A stretch of 64,000 nt of DNA from Leptolyngbya iicbica LK (lineage in GTDB: Bacteria > Cyanobacteriota > Cyanobacteriia > Phormidesmidales > Phormidesmidaceae), in the NCBI RefSeq assembly GCF_004212215.1, contig NZ_QVFV01000002.1, positions 1 to 64,000 on the forward strand, in the 5' to 3' direction. Within the stretch, counting starts at the first letter, position 1. Every line of letters starts with the position of its first letter. Below are positions 2,238 to 49,308 of the stretch, piece after piece. The notes beneath the pieces were generated by a model. The model was not told the origin of the DNA. It was given only the letters and a program-made list of their open reading frames with translations, and did no database searches. Both the position numbers and the translations under genes were made by a program.

Positions 2238-4493
2238 ATGTCCTGTTTTTTGCCAATTACCCCCACGACTGATGTGCAGGCACCGCAAGTTGGGGAATCA
2301 GCCAGTCTGCTGCAGCGTGCTCAGCAGGCTGGGCACGCTGTGCCGCCAAGTTGGGTGATTCCGGCAGCGTATTTTCACCAGACCTTGCAGAAGCTCGAAG
2401 CGCGGGAGCCCTTGCTAACCGATTGGCCCCAGTTGTTGTGGCAAACCACCGAGCCCACCGGATATGCCGTGCAGCAAGTAGCAAAACGTCTGCGCCAACC
2501 GCTCCTCAATCTCCCACTGGACTTGTCCTGGGCCGAGCTACTGGCAGCCATTAATACGCCTGCCGTGCGTTTGTTGCCATCCCTATGGCTCGGCGAGCAA
2601 GTTGCTACTGTGCCCTGGGGACAAATGCTGGCGGCGCCCGTTTGTTGGGCCGACCCAGAAGCGTTGGAAGCCGCTCTCAAACAAGTTTGGCTTTCGGCCC
2701 TCGATGCTAAAAGCCTGACCTTTTGGCGGTTTTGGCGAGCAACTCAGGCCGACACAGAGGCGCATTATCCCGCCATGGTGAACTTGGCCGTGATCGTGCA
2801 GGCCGTGGAACCGGCGACTTTTTCCGGCACGTTGACCGTCCGCCCCGCTACGATCGCGATCGCCGCTGTGGAAGGTTTGCCTCAGGCCTTAGCGGAATGC
2901 TGTCCGGCAACCTTCTCTGGCAAATTGCCGCAGTTGCCCCATTTTCCCTGGCAAGTAGGCTTTCAAGAAACGTTCTACCGTCCGCCTAATCGCCCCGACG
3001 ACAACGTTCCGGCGTTAATCGAGTCTGGGTTGACTAAAGTGGAGCGATCGCGCCTCCAGTTAACGGTGCCAGACCCAGTTGAGCAACCGTTGTGGAGTTT
3101 GGCACAGGAGCTGACCCAGTGGTCAGAGCAGCCGCTGCATCTGGAATGGCTGCAGCATGCCGAAAGTGGCACCCTGCAAATTTCGCAGCTGTATGCCTGG
3201 CCGCTGCAACCTTATGAAGCTCAGACCACATTATCAAAATCTGACAGCAGCGAGGCGCTGGCTGGGCGGGGTGCCGCCCCTGGCACTGCCCAAGGTCACG
3301 CCTTAATTTTGGCCCCCGATCAGCCCGCCCCCATGTCGGCCCATCGACAAATCATCATTGCGTCAGAAATCGCACCCGACCAACTTCCCCTGCTGAAAAC
3401 GGCTAGTGGGGTGGTGGCTGAGCGCGGGGGGCTGACCTGCCATGCCGCTGTGTTGGCCCGCGAACTGGGGCTGCCAGCGATTGTGGGGTTGTCCCATGCC
3501 ACCACTCGCCTGCAACCCGGTGAAGCCATCGAAATTGACGGCGATCGCGGACTCATTACCCGATTGCCCAATTTGCCCAGTGTGCCCCCGGCCCCAGCGT
3601 TGCCCACCGTGGAGTTAGCCCCGACCCAGACGGAAATTTGGGTTAACCTGAGCCAACCAGAGATTGCCGTTGCGATCGCGGCCCTGCCGGTCACCGGAGT
3701 TGGTTTACTCCGGTCAGAATGGCTGATGATGCCCGTCCTCGAACGCCAGCATCCCTATCACTGGCTAGCTACCGGCCAAAAAGAACTCTTGCTAAAACGA
3801 CTGGAGCAGCAGTTACGCCCCATTCTCGAAGCGTTTCATCCCCGCCCTGTGCGATATCGCAGCCTCGATATTCGCACCAGCGAATTTGCCCAATTAGCCG
3901 GTGCCCCAGCGGTAGAACCCAATCCCATGCTGGGGGTGCGGGGGGCCTTTAGCTATCACCATCACCCCCAATTCTTTGGTTTAGAGTTAACGTTGCTCAA
4001 ACGGTTGCAAGACCAGGGTTATGACAACCTGCAGCTAATCCTGCCCTTCGTGCGCACGGTAGAAGAAGTCCAATACTGCCAAACTGCGATCGCCGCGATG
4101 GGGCTACACCAGCAGCCTGACTTTGCCCTGTGGATGATGGCGGAAGTGCCGTCGGTGCTGTTTCAACTACCGCAGTATGTCGCAGCGGGCATCCAAGGCA
4201 TCGCCATCGGCACCCACGACCTGACTCAACTACTATTGGGCATCGATCGCGACCAAACCGTGTTTACGGCTCCCTACGATGAAACGCACCCCGCCGTGCA
4301 ACAAGCGATCGCGCAATTAATTCACACCGCTCAGCAGGCGGGCATTTCCTGCTGCCTCTGCGGGAGTTCACCCACCCATCATCCAGAATTTGTCGCGGCG
4401 GCGGTGCGCCAACAGGTGACGGGCCTTTCCGTCGATGTTTCAGCCCTCGCCCTCGCTGCCCAAATTGTCCAGCAGGCCGAAACCAACCGTTGA
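2238..4493 (+). CDS. PEP-utilising enzyme, phosphoenolpyruvate synthase-like
   Basis: 751-residue relative of phosphoenolpyruvate synthase (PpsA) and pyruvate phosphate dikinase. The central swivelling phosphohistidine domain is clear: GGLTCHAAVLARELG with His402 as the phospho-acceptor. The C-terminal TIM barrel shows GVGLLRSEWL, NPMLGVRGAF, GTHDLTQLLLGIDRD and a C-L-C-G-S segment near the end, matching PEP-binding signatures (the family normally has G-x-C-G-Q). The N-terminal 350 residues correspond to the ATP-grasp part but carry few recognisable ATP-binding motifs. PEP/pyruvate interconversion is therefore likely but not assured. It may be a cyanobacterial paralogue with altered nucleotide use. 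It starts at ATG 2238 and stands alone. Confidence 0.75.
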   Translation: MSCFLPITPTTDVQAPQVGESASLLQRAQQAGHAVPPSWVIPAAYFHQTLQKLEAREPLLTDWPQLLWQTTEPTGYAVQQVAKRLRQPLLNLPLDLSWAELLAAINTPAVRLLPSLWLGEQVATVPWGQMLAAPVCWADPEALEAALKQVWLSALDAKSLTFWRFWRATQADTEAHYPAMVNLAVIVQAVEPATFSGTLTVRPATIAIAAVEGLPQALAECCPATFSGKLPQLPHFPWQVGFQETFYRPPNRPDDNVPALIESGLTKVERSRLQLTVPDPVEQPLWSLAQELTQWSEQPLHLEWLQHAESGTLQISQLYAWPLQPYEAQTTLSKSDSSEALAGRGAAPGTAQGHALILAPDQPAPMSAHRQIIIASEIAPDQLPLLKTASGVVAERGGLTCHAAVLARELGLPAIVGLSHATTRLQPGEAIEIDGDRGLITRLPNLPSVPPAPALPTVELAPTQTEIWVNLSQPEIAVAIAALPVTGVGLLRSEWLMMPVLERQHPYHWLATGQKELLLKRLEQQLRPILEAFHPRPVRYRSLDIRTSEFAQLAGAPAVEPNPMLGVRGAFSYHHHPQFFGLELTLLKRLQDQGYDNLQLILPFVRTVEEVQYCQTAIAAMGLHQQPDFALWMMAEVPSVLFQLPQYVAAGIQGIAIGTHDLTQLLLGIDRDQTVFTAPYDETHPAVQQAIAQLIHTAQQAGISCCLCGSSPTHHPEFVAAAVRQQVTGLSVDVSALALAAQIVQQAETNR

Positions 4494-4585
4494 TTGACAG
4501 GGCCAATTTCCCTCCCTGCGCACAGTCCCCAGAGCCGCGATCGCAGTTCTATAATCGTGATTGTGGCGCGGGGCAACCATTCCAG

Positions 4586-5167
4586 CTAAGTCATCTCGCC
4601 CCGAATGGCTGGGGCCGTGGCGAGATGCTCAGCCCCAGCTTGCATTGACGCAATATCCGCTTCTGACCAAAGACGCACTGATTGACAGTGATGGGCCACG
4701 AGCAACCCCCAAAGACCAGTCGGGATTAGTACCGGCACGACTAAATTCGCCCGTACTTGCAACTCACACAGAAAGTCGCGATGACAGTCGGCAATCGGTT
4801 CAGCTTCGATATCCGCGATCGCTCGCACTCGTCCGGCTAGATAAAGCTCTGCATATTCATCGTTAAAGCATTCATCGGGGCCGGTTGACCCAAAGATTGA
4901 ATAGCGCGGGTCACTCAAGGCTTCAAAGGTGACCTGACCTTCCCATTGCCGATAAAAGTAATACAGCACCACCCGATCCACCTGTAGTTGATGCTGCAGG
5001 TCAGTCGTGACTTGCTCGACCATCGCATCTCGCTCTAGACTTTGCGCTAGGCGAATGAGGGTGTGGCGCAATCCGGGATCAGCGTCCGACCAGCTATGAC
5101 GGGTAGACCTTTCAGGCATTGTTATGGATAAACCGAAGCGAACGTTATGATTACAGCTCAGTTCCAC
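4586..5167 (-). CDS. Stand-alone GAF-domain protein, DXCF-type cyanobacteriochrome
   Basis: The 193 residues hold one GAF domain (about 30-190) and nothing else. It carries both cysteines of DXCF cyanobacteriochromes. DECF at 98-101 gives the second Cys (C100). C128 followed by H129 in ADCHRDFL is the canonical bilin-attachment Cys, next to VRANLVVPVL and GLWGLLVAHHC, as in the AnPixJ/TePixJ GAF domains. A covalently bound phycocyanobilin or phycoviolobilin is thus expected. No histidine kinase, GGDEF, methyl-accepting or HTH domain is attached, so it must act through a partner or as a fragment. The longest frame starts at GTG 5167. The ATG at 5119 (residue 17) is a plausible alternative, and neither has a good Shine-Dalgarno. 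It is monocistronic. Confidence 0.75.
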   Translation of the reverse strand: MELSCNHNVRFGLSITMPERSTRHSWSDADPGLRHTLIRLAQSLERDAMVEQVTTDLQHQLQVDRVVLYYFYRQWEGQVTFEALSDPRYSIFGSTGPDECFNDEYAELYLAGRVRAIADIEAEPIADCHRDFLCELQVRANLVVPVLIPTGLWGLLVAHHCQSVRLWSEADIASMQAGAEHLATAPAIRGEMT

Positions 5168-7804: not shown

Positions 7805-8208
7805 CGATCGCGGTCCATCTGCCCGGAACTTTTTCTAGCAAGAGCGTCATTCTACTTTGCGATGGTTGGCCTTGTCCCTGATGGCAAACCCGACCATCGC
7901 TTCTAGCAGCTTGATGATCAGCGCTCTCAGGCAAATTGCGTGTGTCAAACCTGATTGAGCCTTCAATAGGGTGTTCCAGTCGCCTGTGCATCTGGATTGG
8001 AATCGACTGGAAGCCGCTAGTGTGACTGTCACCAACTCCGAGTGTCACTGTCTTAAACCGGAATTAAACTCAATAAGGACTTCTGTTAATCTTTGACATA
8101 AGGTCTTTCGTTATTCTGACTGACAGGATGAGGCATCAGACTCTGCTGGATTAAAGCCCGCTTTGATTGCCAGAGTGACTCGTAAATTCCGCTTTCACTA
8201 GAGCCTAT
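7805..8208. other. 404-base spacer with a possible broken minus-strand ORF
   Basis: A minus-strand frame at 8035-7847 (62 codons, ending IRDKANHRKVE) is open and protein-like, with LRALIIKLLEAMVGF, but I do not recognise it. Its 5' end has no start with a ribosome-binding site. It may be the tail of a dead transposase. Near 8020-8060 the motifs GTGACTGTCAC and GTGTCACTGTC form short direct and inverted repeats. The promoter of the exbB operon must also lie here. Confidence 0.3.
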
Positions 8209-8904
8209 ATGACGACTGTATTTGATTTTTTGGCGAGGGGTGGCCCCGTAATGGTGCCCATTTTGGGCTGCTCGGTCTTAACGATCGCCACTGCTTTAGA
8301 ACGCACCTGGTTTTGGACAAGTTTGCTCAAACGCGAAAGCCAGGTCGTTAATGAAGTGTTGGAAGCCGCGCGGCAGGACTTGGATGAAGCGGCCGCGATC
8401 GCGGCCCGGGCTAACGATACCCCCGTCGGGCGCTTTCTATCGGCCCCCCTGCGGCTCAAAAATCCCTCCCCCGAGACCTTTCGGCTTGCCCTCGAAAATG
8501 CGGGCGACAAAGAATTTGTGCAGATGCGACGGGGTGACAAACTGCTCGAAACTATCGTTGCCGTGGCCCCGTTGTTGGGCTTATTGGGCACAGTGACGGG
8601 CCTCATCGCCACGTTTAATAATCTCAATATTGGCGGCGGCGGCAACACCGACACCTCCCAGGCCGCCGCCGGCATCGGGGAAGCGCTCATCACCACAGCG
8701 GCCGGCATGGTCGTGGCCATTCTAGCCCTGTTAGTGTTTCGCATTATGGTGACATTTCAAGGGCAACAGATGGACTATTTCTCCGAAGCGGGCAACGAAC
8801 TAGAGCTCATTTATCGACAATATTGGTACGAACCGGCCCTCTCTGCCGTCGATCATCCCGCTCAGCCCCCGCGCTCCGAGCCCTTCGTGGCTGAGCGCTA
8901 TTAA
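8209..8904 (+). CDS. exbB: MotA/TolQ/ExbB proton-channel family protein
   Basis: 231-residue ExbB/TolQ-type stator subunit in the inner membrane. It forms the pentameric proton-driven motor that works with ExbD. A first transmembrane helix lies at about 10-30 (GGPVMVPILGCSVLTIATAL). The signature TM2-loop-TM3 region follows: APLLGLLGTVTGLIATF and GEALITTAAGMVVAILALL, with the conserved Thr pair in TM3. It is followed after 20 bases by the first exbD and then by a second one, so the three form an operon. ATG 8209 is the only sensible start. Confidence 0.88.
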   Translation: MTTVFDFLARGGPVMVPILGCSVLTIATALERTWFWTSLLKRESQVVNEVLEAARQDLDEAAAIAARANDTPVGRFLSAPLRLKNPSPETFRLALENAGDKEFVQMRRGDKLLETIVAVAPLLGLLGTVTGLIATFNNLNIGGGGNTDTSQAAAGIGEALITTAAGMVVAILALLVFRIMVTFQGQQMDYFSEAGNELELIYRQYWYEPALSAVDHPAQPPRSEPFVAERY

Positions 8905-8924
8905 CGCTTAATCCATTCGCCGCT

Positions 8925-9338
8925 ATGCGCTTTCGCGAAACCCGAGACACTGCTCCCCCCCAAATTGACCTGATTCCGATGCTGACGGTCATGATGGGAG
9001 TGCTAGCCTTTTTTGTTGTCGTTACCCTCACCCTCGGCAGCGAAGAAGCCATTGACATGCAGCTACCGGCGGCTCAGCCCGAAGAGTCTCCCCCCACGCC
9101 ATCCACCACCAATCCTTTCATTGTTGAAATGCAGGCTGATGGTGGCTTCACAGTCAATACAAATCCCATTGACAAAGAAACCCTCAAAGTCGAAATGGAG
9201 GCCTACTTGGCTGAAAATGCGGACCATGTGGTCTATCTACTGCCCGCTCGCGACTTACCCTATGAACAGGTGATTCAGTTTTTGGGCGAAATGCGCGCCA
9301 TCGGGGGCGATCGCGTGTCGCTCGCGATCGAAGAATAA
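8925..9338 (+). CDS. exbD: ExbD/TolR-family protein lacking the channel aspartate
   Basis: 137 residues, single N-terminal transmembrane helix (about 15-35) and a periplasmic domain ending GGDRVSLAIEE, as in ExbD/TolR. The N-terminal signature reads IDLIPMLTVMMGVLAFF. The position that is the essential proton-carrying Asp in ExbD (INVTPxxDVML in the family) is Thr21 here. The paralogue just downstream has Asp at the same position. I infer that this subunit cannot conduct protons itself and may form a heterodimer with the second ExbD. The operon spacing is 20 bases after exbB. Confidence 0.82.
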   Translation: MRFRETRDTAPPQIDLIPMLTVMMGVLAFFVVVTLTLGSEEAIDMQLPAAQPEESPPTPSTTNPFIVEMQADGGFTVNTNPIDKETLKVEMEAYLAENADHVVYLLPARDLPYEQVIQFLGEMRAIGGDRVSLAIEE

Positions 9339-9415
9339 CTGGCTCATCGACATCTCATGCACTTCTTAGCCGAGCCAGCCCAACTGCCCCCTTCCTTACA
9401 TTCTCCCTGCCTGCC

Positions 9416-9832
9416 ATGCGTCGTCCTCGCTCGTCCGCCTCTAAGATCCCTGAAGTCAACCTCGTGCCCATGATGGACGTGTTGATGACCGTGCTGACCT
9501 TTTTTATCATCATTTCCATGACCTTGACGGGCAGACAGTTGATCGGCATTGAAATTCCTGAAAATGTCGAAGGCACTGATGCCGAAGTGGATTCCGCCGT
9601 CCAGGCCGAAGCCCTCATCATCGGTCTCGAGCGCGATGGCAACATTATTTTGGAGGACGAACAGATAAGTTTTCAGCAGCTAACTCAGCGCATTCGCGCC
9701 CATTTTGCTGAAAATCCAGACGGTACCCTGCTCCTGAAAGCAGATAAAAACTTACCCTACGACGACGTTGCTGTGTTCTTGACCGATTTGCGCGACATTG
9801 GCGGTAACCGTGTCTCCCTCGCGGTGGAATAG
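9416..9832 (+). CDS. exbD: ExbD/TolR-family protein with intact channel aspartate
   Basis: 138-residue ExbD/TolR protein. Its helix reads VNLVPMMDVLMTVLTFF with Asp21 at the proton-pathway position, followed by a periplasmic domain ending GGNRVSLAVE. It shares the domain layout and final motif with the preceding ExbD, so the two are paralogues from an old duplication. It lies 77 bases downstream of the first copy in the same direction and should be the active half of an ExbD heterodimer or homodimer driven with ExbB. The start is ATG 9416. Confidence 0.87.
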   Translation: MRRPRSSASKIPEVNLVPMMDVLMTVLTFFIIISMTLTGRQLIGIEIPENVEGTDAEVDSAVQAEALIIGLERDGNIILEDEQISFQQLTQRIRAHFAENPDGTLLLKADKNLPYDDVAVFLTDLRDIGGNRVSLAVE

Positions 9833-11758: not shown

Positions 11759-13195
11759 TCAACGCAGAAAGCTCGCGTAGAACACGGAATTTGAGTCGCT
11801 CAAATCAAATGCCTGCGACGTTAGCGGCTGACAATTGACCCCGTTGTAGGCGGTCTGCACAACAACGACATAAGCCTGAGGCGTGGCTGCTGTGGGAAAC
11901 TCAAAATCTTCCACCAGCGCTTTGGCGCGATCGTCAAACACGGCATAGCCAGTAGAACGTAGTAGTTGGGGCTCGCCTTGCAAGTGGCCATCGGTATTCA
12001 CCATCACTCCCCAGCGGGCTTCTTCCGGTTCGATGGGCAGGCAAATGTTATCGGGATAAGTAACGCGGTCTGCCAAGTCCTCTAAAACATTTTCTGCGGC
12101 CACTTCTGCACTCGCGATCGCCTCGTCTCTAGCCAGTGAATTCAGCCACTCTGCCTGATTGTGCCGCGCTTCAGACAGAGTGGTTGATGTGGGGCCAACA
12201 TAACTTTCTAACACCGCAAAATAGTCGTCTGGCAAGTCCGTACCTGCAGGCGGCCATTGGCACCCTGCTGGGTCATAATCGACCATGATTTGAACCAAGT
12301 AGGCCTGAGGTAGATCCTGGCTGGGGTAGGTATGCTGCTCTGCCATGGCTCGGGCCGCCTGATTAAATTGACGATACCCAGACGATCGCAGAGTCATGAT
12401 ATCGCTGTTGACGGTGCCATCTGCTTCAACCAAAACCAGCAGTTCCGCCATCTCAGGGGCATTGGGTAGACAAATCTTGGCCTCATAGGGGATGGGCTCG
12501 ATCTCGGTCAACGGTTGAATCTTTAAGTTGCTGTAGGGGTTGCCCTGCTCGGTAAAACTGCTGAGCCAAATTGATTGCCGCTCAGCGGTTTCTTCTGCGG
12601 TCAACGGATTTAGCCCTTGATAAGTGGCAAACACGTCAGCATAGCTAAGGAATTGTCGCCGCCCTGCCACCGCGCCTGCATTGGGGGCCGGTGGCGGCGG
12701 ATTGGGATTATTGAGCGGGGGCACGACTGGAGACGAGTTAGTGCGATCGCTTCTCGCCGACGCATTCTGAGGCGAGTTACGGCGTTGATTAGCCGCAGGT
12801 CGCGTCTCCCTACGTCGCGCATTGCTAGTGGTGGCGCGGCGGTTATTCGCCCGTAAATTACCACTGGTCTCTCTTGACCGTGCTGCCCCCGATGCCTGAA
12901 CCGAATTGCCGCTAGGCGTCGCCGTCCTTGCTGATTGATTGGCCCTTGGTCTGGCATCTGTGGTGCTCGTGGTCTCAGGGTTGTTCGTCGATCGCTGAGA
13001 AGTAGGTGGCGCAGTTTTGGTCACCGTAATCCCCTCCTCCTCAGGGTCAGGAGGGGGTAACAATTCATCCTCATCTGGTGCGGTCGGCACGAATAAAATC
13101 ATGCCGTGCAATCCTAACGAGAACAGCAACATGAATGGTAAAAGATATCGCTTCAGCGATCGCTTAACAGTTGATAGAGCAGAGGGCTTTGACAT
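11759..13195 (-). CDS. TonB-like energy transducer with two C-terminal TonB-like modules
   Basis: 478 residues. A short cytoplasmic tail is followed by one membrane anchor (about 17-36, LLPFMLLFSLGLHGMILFV). Next comes an acidic-proline stretch (LLPPPDPEEE), then a long Arg/Asn/Ser/Pro-rich spacer to about 170. Two similar modules follow. Each has a CLPxxPE-type start, a strand with DGxx, an L-R-S-S/T-G-Y motif and a P-Q-A-Y-(L/V)V strand (near 250-310 and 400-460). The layout is that of TonB, whose C-terminal domain pulls on outer-membrane receptors using ExbB/ExbD. Two modules in one chain is unusual. The exbB-exbD-exbD operon lies 2-3.5 kb away, beyond the kinase. No TonB-dependent receptor is in the window. 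The start is ATG 13195. Confidence 0.6.
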   Translation of the reverse strand: MSKPSALSTVKRSLKRYLLPFMLLFSLGLHGMILFVPTAPDEDELLPPPDPEEEGITVTKTAPPTSQRSTNNPETTSTTDARPRANQSARTATPSGNSVQASGAARSRETSGNLRANNRRATTSNARRRETRPAANQRRNSPQNASARSDRTNSSPVVPPLNNPNPPPPAPNAGAVAGRRQFLSYADVFATYQGLNPLTAEETAERQSIWLSSFTEQGNPYSNLKIQPLTEIEPIPYEAKICLPNAPEMAELLVLVEADGTVNSDIMTLRSSGYRQFNQAARAMAEQHTYPSQDLPQAYLVQIMVDYDPAGCQWPPAGTDLPDDYFAVLESYVGPTSTTLSEARHNQAEWLNSLARDEAIASAEVAAENVLEDLADRVTYPDNICLPIEPEEARWGVMVNTDGHLQGEPQLLRSTGYAVFDDRAKALVEDFEFPTAATPQAYVVVVQTAYNGVNCQPLTSQAFDLSDSNSVFYASFLR

Positions 13196-13372: not shown

Positions 13373-14185
13373 TTAACCGCGAGGATCGGCAGTCCAAAAA
13401 ATCAAAACGATACTGGCTGGAGGATTACCCGGACCAATCTTGATCGTCGAGACATATAAAGTCGGCACCCCATTATCTTGAATTTCAAATAACTGTTCAC
13501 CACAATATCCGTCAGGAACTTCGACTAATGTCTGGTTGGCAAATGTGAGCGGTAAATCTTCGGAGACAACCAGACCATAATTTCGGCGAAAAAACTTTAA
13601 TTGGTTGGCTTGAGCCAGTAATCGATATCCGTTCGGAGTGATTTCGGCAAAGAAGCAATCTAAATTCAGGTTTTGCAAATAACCCAGCGCCCAAATATTT
13701 TGAGGAAAGTCAGCAGTGCCATCAAATTCGACATTAATACTTCCGGTCTGACCAAGCAGAGTTGACTGTCGAGTGGGGTCAAACTGAGGGTTGCCCTCGT
13801 TATCTAGAGGATTTTCTTCCAGGGCTGTTTCCTCATCTAACATTGGCTCATCAATGACTTCATCTGATACGATAGGCCGCTCTAAATCAGGAGGAATTAA
13901 CGAGTTTTGAATTGGAGGATCAGGGGTTTGAGGCTGTTCAGGCAGTGTTTCTGTTGTAGGCTCCTCTAGTGCGGGAAGATCACTAATACTTAAAATGTCA
14001 ATGGCTTCTTCCTCCTCGGTTAATGTTTCTTCCTCAGTAACCTCTGGTTCACGCTCTTGATCAGGAATCGGCATCAACATAAGAGCCATATGCAGCAGTA
14101 ATGAAAGCCCCATTAGAGGGAAAAGTAACCATTGCCACTGCTTCTTGCGGTGTAATGAAGAAGCCTCAGTGTTAGGAAGTATCAA
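13373..14185 (-). CDS. TonB-like membrane-anchored protein with acidic spacer
   Basis: 270 residues. An N-terminal anchor at about 18-38 (LLFPLMGLSLLLHMALML) is followed by an extremely acidic, proline-containing linker (about 40-140, for example TEEETLTEEEEAID). A C-terminal globular domain with two Cys (about 150-268) follows. The plan parallels the TonB-like gene just downstream (same strand, 177-base gap), but the C-terminal domain does not show its LRSSGY motif. It is probably a partner or diverged paralogue spanning the periplasm. The frame opens at TTG 14185 with no ATG before the membrane helix, so the start is uncertain. Confidence 0.5.
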   Translation of the reverse strand: MILPNTEASSLHRKKQWQWLLFPLMGLSLLLHMALMLMPIPDQEREPEVTEEETLTEEEEAIDILSISDLPALEEPTTETLPEQPQTPDPPIQNSLIPPDLERPIVSDEVIDEPMLDEETALEENPLDNEGNPQFDPTRQSTLLGQTGSINVEFDGTADFPQNIWALGYLQNLNLDCFFAEITPNGYRLLAQANQLKFFRRNYGLVVSEDLPLTFANQTLVEVPDGYCGEQLFEIQDNGVPTLYVSTIKIGPGNPPASIVLIFWTADPRG

Positions 14186-14480: not shown

Positions 14481-15407
14481 TTACAGGCCGGCCAAAGCAT
14501 CATCCAGCTGCGCCAACGCCTCATCATAGTCGCTGCTATCTACCGCAATGTATCCAACTTCTTCAAGCAGGTCGGTATCCCGAGCAGTTTCCAGATAGTA
14601 GCGGACATAAGCCTCAACTTCAGGTCTTTCTAGGGCGTCGGTGCTGATGTAAATGAATAGTGGGCGAGACAATGGGTAAGAGCCATCTTTACCGGTTTCA
14701 AAGCTCGCTGCTACACCTTCGACAGCAACACCGTTCAAGATGTCTTGGTTTTCTAGATAGTAAGCCAGGCCAAAGTACCCCAAGGCATTCTCATCACCGG
14801 AAACCCCGACTACTAGAATGTTGTCGTCTTCACTGGCAACGTAGTCAGCGCGACTAGCACCAGACTCACCCACAACCTCTTCTGTGAAGAAGTCAAATGT
14901 ACCGGAATCTGTTCCGGGGCCATACAAGCGGATAGGGGCATTAGGCCAGCTGGAATTAACCTGACTCCAGCGAGTAATCGTCCCCTCAGCCTCGGGGGCC
15001 CAGAGTGTATTCAATTCTTCAAAGGTAATATTGGTGAGCCAATCATTCTCAGGATGAGCGACCAGAGCCAGAGCGTCCAACCCAACTAAGACTTCAATGT
15101 ATTCAATCCCAGCAGCAGCGCAGGCCTCGACCTCTTCGGGCTTGATCGGGCGGGAAGCGTTGGAGATGACCGTTTCACCAGCGCAGAATTTGCTGAAGCC
15201 CCCCCCGGTGCCAGAAACACCAACGGCAACATTGACCCCAGGGTTAACCTCCATAAAGGTTTCTGCCACCGCTTCTGAAATTGGAAACACAGTGCTGGAG
15301 CCATCAAGGACGATGATCTCTTGAGCCTGAGCTGAGGGGGCGATCGCTAGACCAACAGCAGTGGCTGCAACTACTGCACTGACTGTTGTGAATCGATTAG
15401 CAAACAT
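14481..15407 (-). CDS. sphX: Phosphate ABC transporter substrate-binding protein, PstS/SphX family
   Basis: 308 residues with a classical signal peptide (cleavage near APSAQA-QE, residue 28). The mature part has the PstS/SphX fold: [18 protein letters not shown] at the N-terminus, [16 protein letters not shown] for one phosphate loop and [16 protein letters not shown] for the other. It captures phosphate in the periplasm for the Pst transporter. No pstCAB genes are nearby, which fits SphX, a stand-alone phosphate-binding protein common in cyanobacteria. Which of the two names applies needs a tree. GGAG precedes ATG 15407. A possible Pho box lies about 110 bases upstream. Confidence 0.85.
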
Positions 15408-15911
15408 AAGTTATTACACTCCGTGGGTGTATCAGACATCACCAGACCAAAAGAAAAAATATCAACCGAAGATTATCGAGACCTTTACTAAAGCCCAAGG
15501 GGATATTGGGGTTGAATTAAGCTTTGATTAACTGTCAGCAAATGGATTCAGTGAATCGGCCGAGATATGAAGTGCATCTTTGCCGAGGACTGATCGGTAG
15601 CTCATTACAGTGAAAACAAGCAGGCACTTAATTTCAGTGGCGCTTTAAACCTGAGGACGATGGCATCGGTTCACGGCAAAATTCGGGATATGGCCGTGCT
15701 CCTAGACCCCACTTCACAATCGATAGAACTGGCCCTGACCGATTCTTTTGGGTAGCGCCCATCAATATGAGATTCCAGCAGCCACATCATTGCAGGATTG
15801 TTCTCTGCCCCGCAGCCAAAGTAGTCTTGGGTGATTTTAGGAGACTTTCCCGATAGAACTCCCAGACAAATTTGCCCCACTCTAGACATCCTTTTAGGAC
15901 ACAGCTTGTTT
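15408..15911. other. Spacer of about 500 bases upstream of pstS/sphX
   Basis: It contains the presumed pstS promoter and Pho box at its left end. A minus-strand open stretch (to 15671) merely extends from the kinase gene's other frames and is not credible as a gene. I see no RNA structure. Confidence 0.4.
15514..15532 (-). promoter_or_regulatory. Possible SphR Pho box
   Basis: On the minus strand GTTAATCA-AAG-CTTAATTC gives two T-T-A-A-T half-sites spaced 11 bases, like the tandem CTTAACCT repeats bound by cyanobacterial SphR/PhoB. They are followed by a weaker CCCAATAT. It lies 107-125 bases upstream of the pstS start. The match to consensus is partial, so this is tentative. Confidence 0.3.
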
Positions 15912-48925: not shown

Positions 48926-49308
48926 TATGTAATCCTCTCATAACTATTTGAACACTGATATTGAGCGGCTCGGGCTCGATGAAGTAATTTTTGATTTTGT
49001 AGTTAAGCAAACATTAAGCTAACTGCGCCTCTACTCTTTTATTTTAAGGCGGAACCAGGATCTATCATGTATCGATTGTTAACAAAATCCTCGTCAAAGT
49101 AATCGTCTTCAGCAAATAGCAGAACCAATCTCTGGTTAGATGATTTTCCAGAATTATGCTGCCTATACTTTTGCAACGGTAACGATGCCGTTGATTGGCG
49201 GCGACTTCTTAAAACTTATGAATCGCTCAAGCTGTGATCTGATTATTCAGACGTTAGGCTGTAATCAGTTTCAACCAGATCTGTAATTGAGATTTCCACA
49301 TAGAAAAT
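48926..49308. promoter_or_regulatory. Divergent control region, uspA and putA
   Basis: 383 bases, AT-rich around 49000-49120. It should hold promoters for both neighbours. No operator or riboswitch was recognised. Confidence 0.3.

Follow-up and report, generated by a model that had tools for sequence, protein, structure and literature searches.

The Ton and Tol motors of Escherichia coli are 5:2 complexes whose two Asp residues sit in different environments, and all current rotary models of MotAB, ExbBD and TolQR picture a dimeric axle that turns 36 degrees per proton, with the channel alternating between the two essential Asp residues (PMC12215075). Tandem exbD genes have been described in Xanthomonas and Flavobacterium psychrophilum (PMC3551730) and in Myxococcus xanthus (PMC6434023), and the AglRQS motor contains two MotB-like chains (PMC9389320). 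The statement of the first-pass annotation that normal Ton motors use identical ExbD chains is therefore too strong. Tandem exbD operons are thus already known; the open-access literature on paired ExbDs, Ton systems of cyanobacteria and phosphate yielded no report of such an operon with a conserved Asp-less ExbD partner, the arrangement described here.

The DNA analysed, referred to below as the window, is a stretch of 64,000 nucleotides from Leptolyngbya iicbica LK (contig NZ_QVFV01000002.1). It harbours an exbB gene followed by two exbD genes, copy 1 and copy 2, all three located where the first-pass annotation had placed them (Table 1). Both ExbD proteins match TolR/ExbD of solved structure across nearly their full length (E = 4.5e-7 for copy 1 against a solved TolR) and are 33% identical to each other. 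In this alignment residue 21 falls in the column of the essential pore Asp, which agrees with the earlier identification of that Asp as the proton-pathway residue of ExbD. The residue is Thr in copy 1 (codon ACG at 8985-8987, within IDLIPMLTVMMGVLAFF) and Asp in copy 2 (codon GAC at 9476-9478, within VNLVPMMDVLMTVLTFF), exactly the difference that had been noticed. Copy 2 combines a match to the family profile PF02472 with the pore Asp. Copy 1 passes the same profile and lacks the Asp; by its sequence it is an ExbD homologue, without the status of a canonical proton-carrying ExbD. The polar two-Thr ring that lines the pore of E. coli ExbB is formed by T148 and T181. The ExbB of the window retains the pore threonines and the Glu of TM3 (GLLGT and GEALITT), and GLLGT and GE-[AS]-x-x-T, covering both pore Thr positions, are present in 121 of 126 ExbB open reading frames of this lineage. 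Three further ExbD matches and three further ExbB matches lie elsewhere in the same genome.

Table 1. Position and identification of the motor genes and of the phosphate- and TonB-related features in the window.
Feature	Position	Strand	Identification
exbB (ExbB, MotA/TolQ/ExbB-type pentamer subunit)	8209-8904	+	PF01618, E 3.4e-32, 111 bits (cut-off 22.9)
ExbD copy 1, Asp-less, Thr21	8925-9338	+	PF02472, E 5e-21, 75.5 bits (cut-off 25.4)
ExbD copy 2, Asp21	9416-9832	+	PF02472, E 6e-26, 91.4 bits
Pho box (predicted SphR/PhoB site)	8052-8070	+	CTTAAACC-gga-ATTAAACT, ~140-157 nt upstream of exbB
TonB-like protein	11759-13195	-	PF03544, E 3.6e-6; TIGR01352, E 5.6e-8; TonB C-terminal domain, SxxxH membrane motif SLGLH
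Second TonB-like protein	13373-14185	-	N-terminal helix with SLLLH
PstS, periplasmic phosphate-binding protein	14481-15407	-	TIGR02136, E 2.3e-84, 283 bits (cut-off 206.6); PF12849
Second Pho box (predicted)	15514-15532	-	GTTAATCA-aag-CTTAATTC, ~107-125 nt upstream of pstS

Position 21 is occupied by Asp in 112, Thr in 40 and Asn in 38 of 190 distinct ExbD proteins, and by no other residue. A tree computed without the residue-21 column resolves an Asn/Thr clade of 67 rows (34 Asn, 32 Thr, 1 Asp) and an Asp clade of 75 rows, of which 74 have Asp and one, on a long uncertain branch, Asn (L156). The alignment with many cyanobacterial ExbDs that the first-pass annotation had proposed thus places Asn or Thr in 66 of 67 members of one clade and Asp in 74 of 75 members of the other. 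On this tree, whose exact branching order is unsure because many of its internal branches are weak for so short a protein, nine changes at residue 21 are required, compared with 59.6 for shuffled labels; a tree from the periplasmic part alone requires 14. The asymmetry at residue 21 is real and ancient rather than a local quirk, and it is not due to chance, because the site admits only three residues in 190 proteins and the clades divide almost perfectly between Asp and Asn/Thr. Asp to Asn is a single transition. Within the Asn/Thr clade, Asn and Thr have been exchanged several times and Asp has been regained only once. This regain concerns a copy 1 orthologue (L037, 1498-1911, and L045; genome G045) in which an Asp-type helix is mounted on an Asn/Thr-type periplasmic domain. 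The periplasmic part of L037 is 88% identical to an Asn/Thr relative and its entire helix is of the Asp type; the event looks like a helix replacement, not a point reversal.

Copy 1 is under normal purifying selection. Its dN/dS values (0.04-0.11) are similar to those of copy 2, its identity to orthologues declines at the same pace, with no sign of faster evolution than in the partner, and the transmembrane helix is among its most conserved parts. The pore face has diverged between the two copies: residues 21, 25 and 28, whose spacing puts them on one face of the helix, read D-T/S-T in the Asp copy and N/T-G-A in the Asn/Thr copy, with T or S against G, V or A at residue 25 and T against A at residue 28. 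In the periplasmic domain the copies differ at residues 70, 108-109 and 119, and the K108-A109 motif kept by the Asp copy is lost from the Asn/Thr copy. Residue 15 is Asn in the Asp copy and Asp in 71% of the Asn/Thr copies, the others having Asn (20%) or Glu (9%). The first-pass annotation had reasoned that an Asp at another position of the first copy would count against its reading. Such an Asp exists in the majority of cases, but the Asn and Glu residues rule out Asp15 as a universal replacement for Asp21.

Relatives of the window recognised by sequence belong to Halomicronema and Leptolyngbya-like genomes. Full-length orthologues of copy 1, at least 53% identical, are present in 47 of 63 genomes of the same family. 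Among 386 Cyanobacteria genomes drawn evenly, the copy 1 profile matches 23, and 15 of these have an Asn or Thr copy at the locus; a DNA pattern of the Asn/Thr helix, tighter than the profile and failing to detect the window's own gene, matched 11 of the 386, with none for the reversed control. A scan of 84,980 prokaryote species, one genome each, in which phyla beyond Cyanobacteria were covered solely by peptide patterns, gave 60 confirmed loci with an Asp-less copy. All are labelled cyanobacterial, and they include Leptolyngbya-like genera, Nodosilinea, Acaryochloris, Spirulina, Oculatella, Zarconia, a Coleofasciculus record and others. The pairing whose recurrence in other genomes was to be checked is widespread: an Asp ExbD adjoins the Asp-less copy in 44 of the 60 loci, though the gene order varies, both arrangements beside ExbB being seen. 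Three of the remaining 16 loci stop at contig ends, and most of the rest are from Nodosilinea-like genomes with a relocated Asp gene. In this Nodosilinea-like genus the Asp-less copy stands alone beside ExbB and the Asp copy occupies another locus of the genome. The objection that many genomes might have the first copy alone thus holds for the neighbourhood of ExbB in this genus, but not for its genomes as a whole.

Co-retention of the two copies persists in genomes whose Asp gene has relocated. Of the 47 genomes of the family that encode a complete Asp-less copy, 44 also have the Asp copy (43 from a later genome draw plus G040, which belonged to an earlier draw and was absent from the later one). 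The three exceptions are drafts: in both G005 and G012 the gene is close to the end of a contig, and the G008 assembly is 78% complete. The converse is not true. G020 has an Asp copy and no Asp-less copy, and G030, G032, G033 and G044 (L076-L079, L046, L047) each have just one ExbD of the lineage, an unlinked Asp protein with about 42% identity to copy 2; at the ExbB loci read in G033 and G044 (L046, L047), no ExbD adjoins ExbB. Because these genomes have the Asp copy only, the dependence runs one way: the Asp-less copy accompanies an Asp copy, which itself has no need of the Asp-less one. The Asp-only lineages retain the same ExbB, some with the exbB Pho box (L046, L047) or with pst genes or pstS alongside (L231, L252); a symmetric axle therefore suffices and the asymmetry is dispensable.

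A few loci depart from the common arrangement. At L173 and L174 tandem ExbDs with Asp in both lie beside an ExbB of this lineage, and reflect either an arrangement older than the loss of Asp or an independent duplication. L140 contains a third ExbD (4423-4773), a truncated Asn-type duplicate that lies between the Asn copy and the Asp copy and lacks the first part of the pore helix. An apparent in-frame Thr-Asp ExbD fusion at L146 (3920-4801), which would have been direct evidence of pairing, was rejected: it is a frameshift join in a draft genome, and the first copy's own start lies in a different frame, so the gene is broken or misassembled.

The genes are embedded in a phosphate context that was absent from the first-pass reading. 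Pho boxes are predicted upstream of both exbB and pstS in the window (Table 1). The cyanobacterial consensus is a tandem CTTAACCT with 3-bp linkers, and three repeats are usual (PMC1906773); the exbB box of the window has two, with TTAA cores at 11-bp spacing. These cores are required for PhoB binding (PMC11126600). The pattern TTAA-N7-TTAA occurs at three sites in the window against 0.42 expected, one upstream of each of exbB and pstS and one at 49003. The last (49003-49017, minus strand, CTTAATGT-ttg-CTTAACTA) lies about 290 nt upstream of a plus-strand gene for a PutA-type proline dehydrogenase and is possibly a chance occurrence. Upstream of exbB genes of this lineage the pattern was found at 26 of 54 loci, compared with 0.38 expected, and every other spacing at no more than two. 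A Pho box precedes exbB in 28 of 38 loci of the lineage, a set having genomes in common with the 54, and in none of 16 paralogous exbB genes. A strict Pho box was absent upstream of relocated Asp copies in 13 unlinked cases; the promoter of the adjacent pstS, or a weaker box, may serve these copies.

Linkage to phosphate genes extends across the lineage. At L102, L104 and L246 the genes for ExbB, ExbD(T), ExbD(D), PstS, TonB2 and TonB form an array in one direction, and the second TonB-like gene also lies between PstS and TonB at L243. The set is flanked by pst genes or pstS in distant lineages (L140, L141, L147, L149, L151, L158, L220, L224, L228, L229, L237), as is the relocated Asp copy (L207, L209, L214, L240, L243, L245). 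When flanks of equal length (1.5 kb) were compared, 11 of the 113 loci from this lineage had PstS, a count in which some genomes are entered twice, and none of 42 other ExbB/ExbD loci did. The larger TonB-like protein of the window has both the C-terminal domain and the membrane motif that define TonB; the smaller one has no match among Pfam or NCBIfam models. Both tandem proteins bear the SxxxH helix motif, and pairing may extend to the TonB side as well. Among the proteins of the window that were compared with Pfam, no outer-membrane receptor (TBDT) was detected. A small lipoprotein-like gene with a CGNRL/CFNRL motif is located near exbB at L041 (588-1340), L104 (2232-2975) and L246 (11440-12198), and 25 of the 60 loci have related open reading frames. 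Pho-box control of the exbB-exbD-exbD set and its linkage to pstS and tonB are well supported by these comparisons, and the motor is probably made under phosphate starvation.

The reading favoured here, with a probability of about 0.58, is that the genes encode a Ton-type ExbB5:ExbD2 motor, probably produced by phosphate-starved cells and associated with TonB-like proteins and PstS, with what is most likely a heterodimeric axle in which one chain alone carries the proton. The two helices of the axle would come from copy 1 and copy 2. Asp21 of copy 2 would carry the proton, and the neutral Asn or Thr of copy 1 would resemble a permanently protonated Asp and carry none; in MotB, a change of Asp to Asn mimics the protonated state (PMC9389320). 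If the axle rotates, one proton would be passed for every two in a canonical motor, that is, about five protons per turn in 72-degree steps in place of ten in 36-degree steps. Together with the TonB-like proteins and PstS the motor might help to bring phosphate or phosphorus compounds across the outer membrane. Several observations run counter to this picture: the Asp-only lineages manage with a symmetric axle, the lineage represented by L037 has regained Asp in copy 1, and the single-species mutant ExbD(D25N) of E. coli is inactive (PMC11658791). The strictest version is put forward tentatively and is itself doubtful. In it, the axle would always have to combine ExbD(Asp) with ExbD(Asn/Thr) and would advance about 72 degrees per proton, with five protons per turn; the motor would be expressed under phosphate starvation and, through TonB and PstS, drive the passage of phosphate or phosphorus compounds over the outer membrane.

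Two genes in an operon can also yield two separate homodimers, and this is the main rival to the heterodimeric axle. Both homodimers would use a common ExbB, the Asp/Asp form being active and the Asn/Asn or Thr/Thr form silent, so that the Asp-less copy would tune the number of motors or hold TonB/PstS as a regulator or natural dominant negative. The separate loci of the Nodosilinea-like genus, with the Asp gene beside PstS, would allow independent expression of the two ExbDs, and loss of the K-A motif from the Asn/Thr copy points in the same direction. Against it, the Asp copy accompanies the Asp-less one in all family genomes but the three drafts, and the adjacency seen at most named loci is what a single complex of fixed stoichiometry would predict; separate homodimers are on balance unlikely. 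The Asp-less ExbD might instead form a working motor alone, with the proton carried by Asp15 at the cytoplasmic end of the helix, by another acidic residue or by a residue of ExbB. The frequency of Asp15 in Asn/Thr copies, at a position held by Asn in the Asp copy, would fit such a motor, but the substitute is not conserved and the Asp-less copy is never on its own in a good-quality genome of the family, which makes this a long shot.

Marginally less probable again is a role for the Asp-less copy outside the motor, for example as a membrane-anchored domain that binds peptidoglycan or docks TonB. Its periplasmic domain does differ from that of the Asp copy at several positions; however, a mere anchor would hardly count its transmembrane helix among the most conserved parts, and the Asp-less copy remains beside ExbB even where the Asp copy does not. 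That copy 1 is a degenerating, functionless duplicate is scarcely credible: although the Asp-less copy has been lost in some lineages (L046, L047) and the extra Asn gene of L140 is truncated, the low dN/dS, a rate equal to that of the partner and the wide retention contradict decay, and this explanation was rejected.

That one member of the ExbD pair has stayed neutral at this site, as Asn or Thr, throughout many families of cyanobacteria suggests that a one-carrier motor is feasible. The gene pairs, the Asp-only relatives and the one natural regain of Asp amount to a natural test of whether two carriers are needed. Phosphate is limiting in many cyanobacterial habitats, and the Pho box and pstS linkage would give these organisms a phosphate-responsive Ton system; the open-access literature yielded no report of a Pho-linked ExbB or of a phosphate-responsive cyanobacterial Ton set.

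Compared with TonB-ExbB-ExbD and TolA-TolQ-TolR of E. coli, the cyanobacterial set shares the ExbB/TolQ and ExbD/TolR families, the pore threonines, TonB partners and, in the Asp copy, the pore Asp. The E. coli motors contain one ExbD species with two identical Asp residues, whereas the cyanobacterial set adds an Asn/Thr ExbD, and its genetic linkage is to phosphate instead of iron genes. The regulatory context resembles the Pho regulon of cyanobacteria (SphS-SphR; pst operons, sphX and phoA) in the same TTAA-based tandem box and in the pstS neighbours; in contrast, the main text of the prediction across 19 genomes names no exbB, exbD or tonB (PMC1906773). The exbD1-exbD2 operons of Xanthomonas campestris, F. 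psychrophilum and M. xanthus likewise combine one ExbB with two tandem ExbD genes, but the published descriptions report no loss of Asp, and their roles are in pathogenicity or protease secretion. The AglR-AglQ-AglS gliding motor of Myxococcus similarly joins one MotA-like protein to two MotB/TolR-like proteins, although AglQ and AglS are both predicted to retain the Asp (PMC9389320). Paired TPH-vWA proteins with TolQ-like motors are vWA-domain proteins with an Asp in each chain, yet there too two different chains have been proposed for one 5:2 axle (PMC12204202).
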